Assembly (NCBI RefSeq): GCF_013201625.1
Contig: NZ_CP053839.1
Span: 744,001-808,000 of the forward strand
DNA from: Aliarcobacter lanthieri
GTDB lineage: Bacteria; Campylobacterota; Campylobacteria; Campylobacterales; Arcobacteraceae
Direction of reading: 5' to 3'
DNA length: 64,000 nucleotides
The notes beneath the pieces are model-generated. The model made no database searches, was not told the DNA's origin, and saw only the letters and a list, made by a program, of their open reading frames with translations. Below are positions 13,174-21,778 of this stretch, in pieces. The position numbers and the translations under genes are program-made. How positions within the stretch are numbered: position 1 is the first letter of the stretch; the number at the start of each line of letters is the position of its first letter.

Positions 13174-13287
13174 GTCCAGATTTTTTTAATCATACACAAA
13201 ATAGGAGAATAAAAAGTTATTTTTTAATGAACTTTTTTGAACATAAAAGTTCAACACAACTCAAAGTAGCCCTAATAGGAGATTGTT

Positions 13288-15858
13288 ATGAAAGAGGAAA
13301 CAATAAATTATAAGGGTATAAATATAAAAAATGAGTTATATCCGATTATAAAATATATTGAAGATGTAGATAAATATAAAGATGAATTAACTGCTTTAAA
13401 CTCATCTTGGGATATTTTATCACTTCTAGGACAACTTGGCGATATTAACATAGATATAGGAAAAACAAAAGAGAATTTTCTAAATCTTACTTCAACACTA
13501 TTAAATCACTTAGCTATTCAACAAATAAAAAAAGTTACTCAAGAGATAAATTTTAAATCACAAGTTGCTATTGATATTTTAGTTCGAAATCTTTTTGAAA
13601 GACGAGCTGATATTGGGTTTTTAGCAACAGATGATGAAATAAGAGGTTTCTTAGAAAAATTTATATCAAAATATGATGATAATAGTATGCTTTTAAAGCA
13701 AGATATTAAAAAAAGATTTGAAGAATATATCTCTAAATATTCAGTTTATTTTGATATTGTTTTATTTGATATTCACGGTAAAATAGCTGCTAGAGTGAAT
13801 GAAAATATAAATGTTGAAAGAGTAGATATATCATTTATTCAAAAAGTTTTAAATACAAATGAAGATTATGTTGAAACTTATCAATTTCATGATTTTATAC
13901 CAAAATATCCAAAATCATTAGTTTATTCATATAAAATTACAAATAATAATGAGAATTTAGGAGTTCTATCTCTTTGTTTTAAGTTTAAAGATGAAATGCG
14001 AGTTATTTTTAATAATCTTATAAATCAAAGAAATAAAGAGTGCTTAACAATCATTGATGAAAATGGTTATGTATTAGCAAGTAGTCATAGAGAACATATA
14101 GATTTAGGTACAAAATTACCAATAATTTTAGAGGAAAAATACAAAATTGTATCATTTTCAGGACGAGACTATATAGCAAAGAGTTCTAAAACAAGTGGTT
14201 ATCAAGGCTTTTATGGTCCTAAGTGGTATGGACATATTATGATTCCACTTGAATATTCTTTTTTAAGTGAAGAACATAATGATATAGCAATAGATGAAAA
14301 AGTTATAAACTCTATGATACAAAATGAACAGCATTTTTCAAAAGAGCTAAAAGATGTTTTTGAGAATAGTAAAGAAATACAAGATAATCTTATACGAGTT
14401 ATATGGAATGGAAATATCATCCAAAGTAAAATTAACTCAACAAATAGAGCATTTTCTAGAGCTTTATTAAATGAAATAGGACTTACAGGAAATAAGGCAA
14501 GTTCATCTTTAGATAATCTGAATCACACAATAATATCATCAATATTAAAAGATAGTGAATTCTTATCTCAACTTTCTATTGATATTATGGATAGAAATTT
14601 ATATGAAAGAGCTAATGATTGTAGATGGTGGTCTTTAAATCCATATTTTAAAGATGCTTTAGAAAATGGTATTAAAGATAAAAAAATCAATGAAAGTTTA
14701 AAATATATAAATAGTTTATATACCGTATATACAAATTTGATAATATTTGATAAAAATGGAATGGTTATCGCTGTATCAAATGAGAAATATGAGTCTTTAA
14801 TAGGTAAAAACTTATCTTATGAATGGATAGAACAAACTTTAAATTTAAAAGACACTTCAAAATATTGTGTTTCAAAATTCGAAAAGAGTAGTTTATATGA
14901 TGATAAACCAACATATGTATATTGTAGTGCAATTTTTTCATCAAAGGATAATAAAAAAGTTATAGGAGGAATAGCTACAATTTTTGATGCACAACATCAG
15001 TTTTACTCTATCCTTGATGAAATTTTACCTAAAGATAATAATGGATTAAATCAAAAAGGTGTTTATGCTTTTTTTACTGATAAGAGTAAAAAAATTATTT
15101 CAACAACAAGTACAAATTTTAAAATAGATTCTTATTTAGAAATAGATGATAAATTTTTTAGGTTAAATAATGGTGAGTATTTAAGTAGTATTATAGAATT
15201 TCGTGGATATTACTATGCTGTTGGCGTAAAATGCTCTACTGGATATAGAGAATATAAAAGTGCAGTTGATGATTATAAAAATGACGTTTTATCTTTTGTA
15301 TTTATACAAATTGGACAAACTGATATAGATATATCTTTTACAAATACAAAAACAAAATTTTTAACTTCTCAAAAAAGAGAGTTTGAAGATAAAACTGTTG
15401 AATTAGCAACTTTTTATTTAGGCAAAAGATTACTTGCTATTAATTCACTTAATGTTGTTGAATCTATAGGTATAGAAGATTTAGAAGTTTCTATTGATAT
15501 GGATGAAACAAATCCTTTTAAAGGTATGGTTTTACATAAAGATAGATTAATATCAGTTCTAGATATAAGAGAATTTATAAAAGAAGATATAACAAATGAA
15601 GAACTTTCAAATATAATATTAGTGGAGTATGATAAAGATAATATTGAACATTGTGTTGGTCTTTTGGTTAGTTCACTTGAAACTATTTGTACAGTTGAAG
15701 AAAAATCCATTCAACATATTCAAAATCACTTTTTAGGTAGTGGAACTTTGGTTGAAAGTCTAGTTGAAATAAAAGATATAGATGATGATAGAACTTCTAA
15801 AGTTGCTATGCTTTTAAATATTAAAAAATTAGATGATAATTTTACAAAAAGAGTTTAA
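13288..15858 (+). CDS. Soluble tandem-Cache protein with C-terminal CheW domain
   Basis: The 856-residue protein has no signal peptide or membrane segment, so it should be cytoplasmic. Two related Cache/PDC-like units can be seen. The first contains NLFERRADIGFLATDDEIR at about residue 100 and a sensor-like sheet (FDIVLFDIHGKIAARV). The second contains NLYERANDCRWWSLNPYF at about residue 436, then LIIFDKNGMVIAVSNE. From about residue 703 to 850 a CheW-like domain follows (ATFYLGKRLLAINSLNVVES, VLHKDRLISVLDIREFI). CheW domains couple receptors to CheA, so this looks like a soluble sensory adaptor. GGAG lies upstream of the ATG. The ligand is unknown. Confidence 0.8.
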   Translation: MKEETINYKGINIKNELYPIIKYIEDVDKYKDELTALNSSWDILSLLGQLGDINIDIGKTKENFLNLTSTLLNHLAIQQIKKVTQEINFKSQVAIDILVRNLFERRADIGFLATDDEIRGFLEKFISKYDDNSMLLKQDIKKRFEEYISKYSVYFDIVLFDIHGKIAARVNENINVERVDISFIQKVLNTNEDYVETYQFHDFIPKYPKSLVYSYKITNNNENLGVLSLCFKFKDEMRVIFNNLINQRNKECLTIIDENGYVLASSHREHIDLGTKLPIILEEKYKIVSFSGRDYIAKSSKTSGYQGFYGPKWYGHIMIPLEYSFLSEEHNDIAIDEKVINSMIQNEQHFSKELKDVFENSKEIQDNLIRVIWNGNIIQSKINSTNRAFSRALLNEIGLTGNKASSSLDNLNHTIISSILKDSEFLSQLSIDIMDRNLYERANDCRWWSLNPYFKDALENGIKDKKINESLKYINSLYTVYTNLIIFDKNGMVIAVSNEKYESLIGKNLSYEWIEQTLNLKDTSKYCVSKFEKSSLYDDKPTYVYCSAIFSSKDNKKVIGGIATIFDAQHQFYSILDEILPKDNNGLNQKGVYAFFTDKSKKIISTTSTNFKIDSYLEIDDKFFRLNNGEYLSSIIEFRGYYYAVGVKCSTGYREYKSAVDDYKNDVLSFVFIQIGQTDIDISFTNTKTKFLTSQKREFEDKTVELATFYLGKRLLAINSLNVVESIGIEDLEVSIDMDETNPFKGMVLHKDRLISVLDIREFIKEDITNEELSNIILVEYDKDNIEHCVGLLVSSLETICTVEEKSIQHIQNHFLGSGTLVESLVEIKDIDDDRTSKVAMLLNIKKLDDNFTKRV

Positions 15859-15900: not shown

Positions 15901-16527
15901 TTATGCTAATGCGTTAATCATATCTTTTGTAACTTCTGAAACATCTTTTGTTCCATCAAGTTCTATAAATATTCCTTTATCTTTGTAAAAGTCGATTAAA
16001 GGAGCAGTTTGAGTATGATACGCTTCTAGTCTTTTTGTAACAGTTTCTTCTGTATCATCTGCTCTTTGTTCAAGATCTTCTTCTTTTTCATCTACTGGTG
16101 GATTGAATTTAATATGATAGATTTTACCAGTTACTTTTGATGTTCTTCTCCCTGTGATTCTTTCAACTATATTTGAGTCTGGAACATTTAAAGATATTAC
16201 TTTATCAAGTGAGATTTTCATATTGTTCATTAACTCGTCTAAAGCTTCTGCTTGAGCTAAAGTTCTTGGAAAACCATCAAGAATAAAACCATTTTTACAG
16301 TCAGAAACTGCTAATCTATCTTTGATAATACCAATAATAGTTGAATCAGGAACTAACTTCCCTTCATCCATAAATCTTTTTGCTTCCATTCCCATATCTG
16401 TTTTATCTGCAATTGCAGCTCTTAGTATATCTCCAGTTGATATTTGAGGGATGTTATATTTTTCAATTAAGAACTTTGCTTGAGTTCCTTTACCAGCTCC
16501 TGGTGCTCCAAATAGCATTAAATTCAT
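15901..16527 (-). CDS. adk: Adenylate kinase, long-LID type
   Basis: This enzyme interconverts ATP plus AMP with two ADP in the cytoplasm. The 208-residue protein has the P-loop GAPGAGKGTQ, the AMP-binding QISTGDILRAA, DGFPRTLAQAEAL, and a long LID (GRRTSKVTGKIYHIKFNPP) with no zinc cysteines. It is divergent from a second, shorter adenylate kinase that starts 127 bases away. The ATG is preceded by AAGGATAAA. Confidence 0.95.
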   Translation of the reverse strand: MNLMLFGAPGAGKGTQAKFLIEKYNIPQISTGDILRAAIADKTDMGMEAKRFMDEGKLVPDSTIIGIIKDRLAVSDCKNGFILDGFPRTLAQAEALDELMNNMKISLDKVISLNVPDSNIVERITGRRTSKVTGKIYHIKFNPPVDEKEEDLEQRADDTEETVTKRLEAYHTQTAPLIDFYKDKGIFIELDGTKDVSEVTKDMINALA

Positions 16528-16628: not shown

Positions 16629-16654
16629 CATTCTCAAAGTTTTAAAGGAAAGTG

Positions 16655-17224
16655 ATGAAAAAACTATTTTTAATAATTGGTGCACCAGGAAGTGGAAAAA
16701 CAACAGATGCAGAATTAATATCTAAAAAACATATAAATATTACACATTATAGTACAGGAGATATGTTTAGAGCAGAAGTTGCCAGTGGAAGTCAAAGAGG
16801 AGAATTAATTGATACTTTTATAAAAGCTGGAAATATAGTACCTATAGATATTGCTATTGAGACTATTTTAAAAGCTATAAAAAATGCTCCAACAGATATT
16901 ATAGTAATTGATGGATATCCAAGAAGTTTAGAACAGATGATAGAACTTGATAAATATTTAGTGAATGAGAATGAAGTTGAGCTTATAAGTTGTATAGAAG
17001 TTGTTGTAAGTGAAAAAGTAGCACGAGATAGAGTTCTTGGAAGAGCAAGAGGTGCTGATGATAATGTTGAAGTATTTAATAATAGAATGAGAGTTTATAC
17101 TGAGCCATTAGAACAAATACAAGCATTCTATGAAGAAAAAGGTATTCTTAAAAAAATTAATGGTGAGAGAACTATTGAAGAGATTGTCAATGAAATGGAT
17201 AGTTTTATTCTATCAAAAATATAA
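16655..17224 (+). CDS. Adenylate kinase, Campylobacter-type short-LID
   Basis: The 189-residue protein has the P-loop [41 protein letters not shown] and the tail [17 protein letters not shown]. This matches the adenylate kinase found as the only copy in Campylobacter as I remember it; it lacks the long LID insert. The start is ATG 16655 behind AAAGGAA; a GTG at 16652 is also in frame. It is followed after 18 bases by a CinA-like gene, a probable operon. Whether it replaces or supplements the neighbouring adk is unknown. Confidence 0.88.
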
Positions 17225-18840: not shown

Positions 18841-19476
18841 TTATCTTTTTTTCTTTTTTCTTGAGTTATTAATTTTATATTCTGCTTTCTTTAGCTTCTC
18901 TATTAATTTTGAAGCTATTTTAAACATATTCATAATCACATCTTTTTTATCTATATCTAAATTCTTTCTTACTTTTTCATATTTACTAATTAAAGCTATA
19001 TAATCAAAATTATTTAAGTATGGGTATAAATAACTACTTTTTTCTTCTTCTATTATCCATTCACTTAAAAGACAAATTACAATAAGTTCTGGTATCCAAA
19101 AACTTCCATTTGGTAATAAAATTTCTATATTTTTTACTAAAGTATCATAATAAACCATTAGAGGTTCTTCTCTTTTTGCCAATATTCTTAAAGTTGAGTT
19201 TTTACTTGCATTTTCGATTAAACTTCTAAGATAACTAGAATTTATAACAGTATCTTGTAAATTTTCTAGTAAATTCTTTAAAATAGAATATATATATTTA
19301 TTATCTTCTTTATTGGATAACTCAAAATAATATACTCCATTATCTATTGAATCAAAATATTGTTCTAAAGTTGTTCTTATAAATACTAAAAGTGCTTCAG
19401 TTTTAATATCTCTTAATAGTTTAGGTTTTACTCTATTTTTACAATTCATATTAGAATTAAAAACTTTCCCATTCAT
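18841..19476 (-). CDS. Protein of unknown function in the CZB-receptor operon
   Basis: I do not recognise this 211-residue protein. It is mostly helical by composition, with hydrophobic stretches around residues 130-150 ([17 protein letters not shown]) too weak for a sure membrane segment, and a very basic end ([16 protein letters not shown]). The first ATG (19476) overlaps the final codons of the upstream chemoreceptor by 20 bases, so translation is probably coupled; no good ribosome site is seen, and ATG 19449 is an alternative. The response regulator follows 82 bases downstream. Confidence 0.65.
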
Positions 19477-21778
19477 TTTTATTTTTATCTATTTTTTTTA
19501 ATTTAATATCTTTTATTTCTTCAATAAAAATATTATCTTGTTTATTGGAATTTTGATTTTCTATACATACATTTTTTTTAACCATATTTAATTCATCAAA
19601 AATATTTGAAGTTAAATTCTCAATATCTATTGCTAAATCTTTTAGATTTACATTTGAATCTATTTTTATATCTTCATCTACGAAAGTTTGAACTGCTTGA
19701 TGAATATCTTCATGATATTTTTTTAAATTACTCCAACTTATAGTTTTTGTATATTTTTCTGAATTATTTTCAGATTCTTTTATCCATTTTCCTAAATTAC
19801 AATCGTTACAAGATACTACAGTCCATCTTTCATTTTTACCAAGCTTTGCAAAGTTATTCTCTTTAAATCTTATGTGGTCATTTTTTAATTTTGCAGTTTT
19901 AAATACTAAATCTACATTACAAATATAATCTTTTGTTTGTTTTGAATAATTAGCTAAGTTTGCAGCCTTAACTAATTTTGATGAAAGTTCAGAAACTTCT
20001 TTTGATAACTCATTTATTTGATTTGAAACCATTGCATTATGTTGAGTTTGACGGTCAAGTTGATTGACTGCATCATTTATTTGCTCAATTCCCATTAGTT
20101 GTTCTTTACTAGCCATTTCAACATCTGCTATTAAATTGATTGTTTGAGAAATATTTGAATTTAATTGAGTATAACCTTTTATCATATTATTAGCTATATC
20201 TTTACCTTCATTTGCTTTTTGTGTAGCTAGTTCTACTATATCTTTTATTTGTTTTGCTGCTTCTGCACTTCTACTTGCAAGATTTCTTACTTCTTGTGCA
20301 ACTACTGCAAAACCAAGACCTGATTCTCCAGCTTTTGCTGCTTCTACTGCTGCATTTAAGCTTAGTATATTTGTTTGAAATGCTATATTATCTATTACAC
20401 TTATGGCTTCATTCACTAAATTTACCTGAGTATTTATTTCATCCATCGCTTGATTTGTTTGATTCGCTAATTTTTCTCCATGAACAGATGATTTTGTTAT
20501 CTCATTAGAATATAGAGACATTTTTGCTATATTTTCTGTATTATTCCTAATATTAGATGTTATCTCTTCTAAAGCTGCTGCTGTTTCTTCTAATGATGTT
20601 GCTGCTTCATTTGCATTTGTTGATAAGTTTGATGAAGACTCTGATAATATAGTTGTATCCTCATTAAGTTTATCTCCAGTAGATAAAATCATAGCCAATA
20701 ATTCAGATATATTATTTCCAACTAATCTTGTACTAGACTTTAAACTTCCATAAGTCCCAACCATTACTAAATCCTCAGGAACTCTACTTTCAAAGTGTGA
20801 TTCACCAAAGTCTAATAATACATTACTTATTGAAGATATTTTTGTTTGTAAATTCTTTGAAAGAGAATTTATATTATTCTTTATAGCTTCTATTTGTTGG
20901 TTTTGAGATTCTGTTTTTATTTGAAACATAAAAAATCCTCTATCAATGTAATCAAGCATTTTATCTATTTCAACTAATATCTTTTGTTCATTTAATATTT
21001 CATTACTGATTTTTTCAATATTTTTATTTATAATTTTTGCCATTTCACCAAATTCATCTTCTGAATAAATATTTATTAATTCCACAGATAGTTTTTCTTT
21101 ATTTAGATAAGAGAAAAAATTTATTAGACCTAATTGGAAAGATTTTATATTAAATATTAAGTTCTTCCCTATGAAAAATATCAATATTTGGATGATGAAT
21201 AAAATAACTACTAAAGTAACAATGATTGAAATGATGATATTATCAGTTGTATCTTTTAGATTCTTTTCAAGTTTTAAAATTTTTTCTTGATTAGCTTCTT
21301 TCCATTTTAATAGCTTAGATTTTATGATTCTCCATTGATTTGTAGTTTCAACATTATCTTTATATATTAAAACTTCATTATTTTTTAATTTTTCTTCTAT
21401 TTTGCTTAATTCAGTTATTTGTGAACTGTATAATTTACCAATATCAAATTTCTCAAATCCTAAAGATATATTTGAACTATTTTTTAATTCTATAATCAAT
21501 TCGTTATAGTCTTTAATTGCTTGTATAAAATTTTCTTTGGCTTTTATATCATCATGATTAATAATAACTCCTCTTAAAGCATTTGATATTTGAAGTCCTT
21601 GTTCTAAACTACCATGAATTTTTTGTGATAGTTCTATAATTTCATATTTTTCTTTATTTGTTTTTTCTATATTATTTAATCCATAATATACAACAAGTGC
21701 AATTATAATAAATGATATTAAAGTTATAAAACTAATAATATTTATTTTATAATTGATTTTTAGATTTTTTAGTTTCAT
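19457..21778 (-). CDS. Chemoreceptor with C-terminal zinc-binding CZB domain
   Basis: The 773-residue methyl-accepting protein has a membrane segment at about 12-32, a helical periplasmic region of about 145 residues, and a second membrane segment at about 180-203. A HAMP-like linker ([20 protein letters not shown]) and a signalling hairpin follow, with the tip [19 protein letters not shown]. After the hairpin, at about residues 625-705, is a CZB domain: His in NDHIRF (about 635), Cys in CNLGKW and two His in YHEDIH, the family's zinc ligands. CZB domains bind zinc and in TlpD-type receptors link to oxidant sensing. The end is NEWESF, like the NWETF CheR tether. The leader carries three AGATA repeats. 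Confidence 0.93.

Follow-up and report, generated by a model that had tools for sequence, protein, structure and literature searches.

A soluble Aliarcobacter lanthieri protein joining two dCache units to a CheW domain without Arg62-Gly63, a possible internal sensor of the chemotaxis array

Introduction

CheW joined to sensor domains is already known from CheWS and from CheW-CZB proteins. CheWS of Treponema denticola (CheW-CheRlike) is anchored in the array and senses SAM, and a supplementary figure of the same 2023 survey lists 30 further CheW architectures that are as yet unstudied (PMC10653840). CheV, in turn, combines CheW with a receiver. On the sensor side, prokaryotes are considered to rely chiefly on Cache domains for extracellular sensing; Upadhyay et al. 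found the Cache families to be principally extracellular, with two small exceptions (PMC4822843). The dCache chemoreceptors Tlp1 and Tlp3 of C. jejuni and TlpC of H. pylori are periplasmic, lie between two membrane helices, and carry an MCP signalling domain.

Here we describe a protein encoded in a 64,000-nucleotide stretch of the A. lanthieri genome (NZ_CP053839.1, positions 744,001 to 808,000, the whole of which is called the window), which places two dCache units ahead of CheW. It resembles CheWS in being soluble, in having one CheW and a ligand-sensing domain but no receptor signalling domain, and in being a proposed reporter of an internal metabolite to the array; however, CheWS carries its sensor, a CheR-like SAM domain, on the C-terminal side of CheW, whereas here two dCaches are N-terminal and CheW is without Arg62-Gly63 (PMC10653840). 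With CheV it shares the design of a CheW-domain adaptor bearing a second regulatory module, but input would come by ligand rather than by phosphorylation; a real CheV is encoded in the same genome. With Tlp1, Tlp3, and TlpC it shares the sensor fold. The dCache-dCache-CheW arrangement may already be among the 30 architectures of that survey (PMC10653840), and our literature search found no paper describing or studying it.

Overall architecture and cellular location

The features of the gene, all on the + strand and numbered by window position, are as follows.

13277..13282, +, AGGAGA, likely ribosome binding site (sequence)
13288..15858, +, whole gene, 856 aa, dCache-dCache-CheW, soluble (ORF and translation; Pfam; no transmembrane segment)
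13324..13572, +, N-terminal helices ahead of the first dCache, aa 13-95 (alignment; helical in a low-confidence full-length model)
13573..14283, +, first dCache domain, aa 96-332 (Pfam dCache_1 at aa 110-306; homology to unit 2 and to cytosolic MCP-tip dCache proteins)
13588..13623, +, motif NLFERRADIGFL, aa 101-112 (sequence)
14302..14508, +, helices ahead of the second dCache, with the first portion of its stalk, aa 339-407 (unit-2 model, low confidence here)
14509..15318, +, second dCache domain including its stalk helix, aa 408-677 (structure model; Z 17-21 against dCaches of solved or modelled structure)
14596..14631, +, motif NLYERANDCRWW, aa 437-448 (sequence)
15319..15393, +, linker, aa 678-702 (length nearly constant at 22-27 aa; 17% mean pairwise identity)
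15403..15831, +, CheW domain, aa 706-848 (Pfam CheW; profile match to solved CheWs)
15538..15543, +, Lys-Asp, aa 751-752, aligned to E. coli CheW Arg62-Gly63 (alignment)

The gene, which starts with ATG at 13288, is real and belongs to a conserved family; the opposite strand holds no ORF of comparable kind. It is probably monocistronic, and a scan for promoters gave no more matches than expected by chance. Housekeeping genes make up most of its neighbourhood (aspS, adk, ygiQ, and the gene for a zinc-type binding protein), in which no chemotaxis partner is conserved, so a conserved operon partner was rejected. Just downstream, two adenylate-kinase-like genes, recognized by inspection of their translations, lie side by side and diverge (15901-16527, -; 16652-17224, +).

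As the initial annotation had claimed, two related units precede CheW: Pfam dCache_1 and CheW both score above their cut-offs, and profile comparison aligns one half of the protein with the other (E = 2e-23). Its further statement that membrane segments and signals are lacking also held, since no 19-residue window has a mean hydropathy above 1.12 (a membrane MCP encoded elsewhere in the window reaches 3.38) and the N terminus shows neither a hydrophobic stretch nor a signal peptide. Export, which would have spoken against a cytoplasmic sensor, was rejected on these grounds; in one relative (L020), a hydrophobic stretch at residue 4 lies upstream of a plausible later start. The extracytoplasmic position between membrane helices that is usual for dCache_1 is thus absent, and a cytosolic dCache pair is unusual because Cache families are found principally outside the cell (PMC4822843). 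Pfam detected no receptor signalling domain (PF00015, no match at E up to 1), in agreement with the proposal that the protein is not a receptor, and no receiver of the CheV kind or CheR domain of the CheWS kind; an NCBIfam search gave no match.

The two dCache units

Pfam dCache_1 (PF02743) matches the protein in two stretches (1.3e-12, 48.2 bits against a cut-off of 45), and unit 2 has further, weaker Cache matches. A full-length structure model was unusable (pLDDT 42.5), and unit 2 was modelled from an input of 18 rows, to which each of nine sequences contributed its unit 2 and its unit 1. The model (pLDDT 75.5, pTM 0.70) combines a long helix with two alpha/beta modules; it resembles known dCache sensors in Foldseek (E = 1e-11 to 1e-7) and by Z scores of 17 to 21, the matches including DctB (19.6), H. 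pylori TlpC (17.4) and TlpA, and C. jejuni Tlp1 (18.2) and Tlp3. The Cache fold, for which structure prediction had been suggested as a check, is therefore borne out, but what had been described as a single Cache-like unit turns out to be a double Cache, complete and borne on a long stalk helix, as seen in the model for unit 2 and by Pfam and homology to unit 2 for unit 1; with that basis for unit 1, the protein carries four Cache modules.

The motifs placed by the initial annotation at about residues 100 and 436 were found at aa 101-112 and 437-448, but on the stalk and not within the Cache sheets: the unit-2 motif corresponds to model residues 99-110, inside helix 48-112. The unit-1 motif occurs as NL[FY]ER in 36 of 37 relatives, the remaining one (L043) having CLYERSSDVAFL, and the unit-2 motif is present in 37/37, where L043 has the form NLYERAADCRWW. 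A redox role for the Cys of DCRWW was rejected because the residue varies (35 Cys, 1 Ala, 1 Ser). A decayed MCP hairpin tip before each dCache, suggested by eye and by one gapped alignment, was dropped as well, since the helix profiles alone matched nothing when compared with a small MCP-tip profile (one MCP of the same genome and plasmid proteins).

A tblastn search of plasmids revealed alpha- and betaproteobacterial proteins (L044-L048, L050-L052; for instance, WP_318784668 and WP_060148510), most of them 340 to 390 aa long, in which an MCP hairpin tip is followed by a dCache with [DV]RNL[FY]ER; by inspection, they have no evident membrane segment. Their profile aligns with units 1 and 2 at about 1e-34, and among the Campylobacterota matches listed its dCache part matches only the twin-dCache family, the others covering the MCP tip. 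Units 1 and 2 are assigned by sequence to a cytosolic type of dCache whose mark is [VD]RNL[FY]ERxxD. The two kinds of protein share a homologous dCache, the RNLYER motif, and the lack of an evident membrane segment; in the plasmid proteins, however, a single dCache stands behind the MCP tip, their tie to chemotaxis, whereas here two dCaches stand ahead of CheW and Pfam detected no MCP tip. This dCache type is therefore wired to chemotaxis in the alpha- and betaproteobacteria too, where the plasmid proteins are possibly a distinct class of cytosolic chemoreceptor.

The CheW domain

The C-terminal domain matches Pfam CheW (PF01584) at 1.2e-10 (41.6 bits against a cut-off of 23.5) over profile positions 2-133 of 138, and a profile search matched it to the solved CheWs 1k0s, 4jpb, and 2qdl at about 1e-8. 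We aligned 34 fusion domains with the CheW, CheV, and CheA P5 of the host and with E. coli CheW. The Arg62-Gly63 signature (E. coli numbering) is kept in 0/34 fusion domains: position 62 is Lys (18), Asn (10), Glu (3), Asp (2), or Tyr (1) and never Arg, and position 63 is never Gly. The same site reads Arg-Gly in the CheW and CheV of the host and Arg-Glu in its CheA P5, and N-x-R-G is found in 19 of 20 other CheW domains of Campylobacterota, the remaining one not being read by the pattern. In a HMMER alignment made without the E. coli sequence, the N-L-R-G of the solved T. maritima CheW likewise falls opposite non-conserved residues of the fusion family. The CheW hallmarks expected of this domain are thus present in profile and coverage but absent at the signature, which makes a plain CheW adaptor coupling to CheA too simple a description. 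What appears to be new here, on the alignment, is that all 34 fusion CheWs are without a signature that the host's own CheW and CheV keep; its absence could reflect a loss of normal CheW function.

Family and distribution

Relatives were found in 34/298 Campylobacterota genomes and 15/58 genera by protein search and in 61/104 Arcobacteraceae genomes by profile search; both genome counts take in a few fragments, and the latter also a few CheW-only matches. The closest named relatives of the genome belong to Aliarcobacter, Arcobacter, and Poseidonibacter. Most relatives of the protein are complete dCache-dCache-CheW fusions, and since full-length fusions at 34 to 78% identity occur across many genera, the fusion is more than chance. 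Among 18 relatives tested with Pfam, CheW matched in 18, dCache_1 in 15, and Cache_WalK in 18. Three relatives of 637 to 666 aa (L041, L042, and L043) stop where CheW would begin and contain neither CheW nor another output domain by Pfam, while their genomes have CheW-domain genes; this end point at the junction indicates that the sensor pair is a module separable from CheW. In one relative (L028, 222-2935), the fusion is divided over two ORFs by a break within the second dCache, either a natural split or a sequencing error. Viral contigs held no relatives; outside Campylobacterota, plasmids were searched, and genome contigs were scanned for exact matches to short peptides, a search that extends to close relatives only.

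Proposed role in chemotaxis

Because sensors of extracellular type are joined to the array adaptor CheW in a cytoplasmic protein, the fusion, although not a membrane receptor, probably passes a chemical signal from inside the cell to the control of swimming. We consider it moderately likely that, by analogy with Treponema CheWS, it is a soluble internal sensor docked to the array, where it modulates the kinase instead of bridging it. The two cytosolic dCaches would bind one or two intracellular small molecules, and the C-terminal CheW would locate the fusion either within the CheA/CheW ring or at receptor tips, most likely as an anchor, given the loss of Arg62-Gly63 and the unconserved 25-residue tether; a ligand-dependent change in the dCache pair, or its dimerization, might then alter CheA output or the packing of nearby receptors, as proposed for CheWS. 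An array-docked sensor is favored by the presence of CheA, CheW, and CheV genes elsewhere in the genome and by the mean pairwise identity of the family, which is 52% for the sensors versus 38% for CheW. Several observations count against it: no chemotaxis gene adjoins the locus; R-x-W-[YF], which we take to be the ligand motif of amino-acid dCaches (dCache_1AA), is absent from the four sequences tested; some relatives are without CheW, so the sensor pair can act alone; most small genomes of the genus are without the gene; and another Aliarcobacter (G290) retains, between aspS and ygiQ at the orthologous locus, a decayed remnant that carries stops and large deletions (L049, 2400-2990).

CheW domains bind CheA and receptors alike, and the genome encodes 26 MCP signalling domains; the protein might thus be a receptor-specific adaptor whose CheW binds the tips of an MCP subset, as CheV does, the dCache pair tuning which receptors are active rather than CheA. 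Glu38, a receptor-site residue of E. coli CheW (PMC3828127), is retained in 17/34 fusion domains, that of the window protein included, but it is gone from the other half of the family and no MCP gene is linked, and we regard this alternative as unlikely. The missing arginine might instead point to a decoy or brake: E. coli CheW R62A binds CheA and receptors with normal affinity, yet chemotaxis is impaired (PMC3828127), and since Arg is replaced throughout the fusion family, a domain that competes with normal CheW and CheV for array sites would let units assemble that do not signal, the ligand setting the amount available. Other CheW positions diverge too, however, so the behavior of R62A may not carry over, and we judge such a role improbable. 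That the CheW fold was recruited outside chemotaxis, docking the sensor pair on another partner, would suit the lost signature, the relatives without CheW, and the housekeeping neighbourhood, but is very improbable given that CheW matches over its full length, is kept in 18/18 members tested, and is accompanied by further CheW-domain matches in every fusion-bearing genome examined.

Extending the array-docked reading to the plasmid proteins, we tentatively suggest that a branch of cytosolic dCaches may have been plugged into chemotaxis along two routes, by an MCP tip in alpha- and betaproteobacteria and by a signature-less CheW in Campylobacterota, the latter being a receptor-free, array-anchored input through which an internal metabolite would modulate CheA. 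The Arcobacter chemotaxis system is of the F7 class (PMC9321776). If the proposal is correct, Cache domains, in the form of a conserved cytosolic pair linked to CheW, would also read the cell interior, and CheW fusions would be a general route of metabolic input to arrays rather than a spirochete oddity; the missing Arg62 makes the question of binding versus signal transmission by CheW testable in a natural protein.

Elsewhere in the window, the segment 20051-38113 contains five MCP signalling domains (at about 20.1, 26.0, 32.8, 35.4, and 37.7 kb), so receptor genes are dense there, and the MCP at 19457-21778 presumably ends in a CZB domain.
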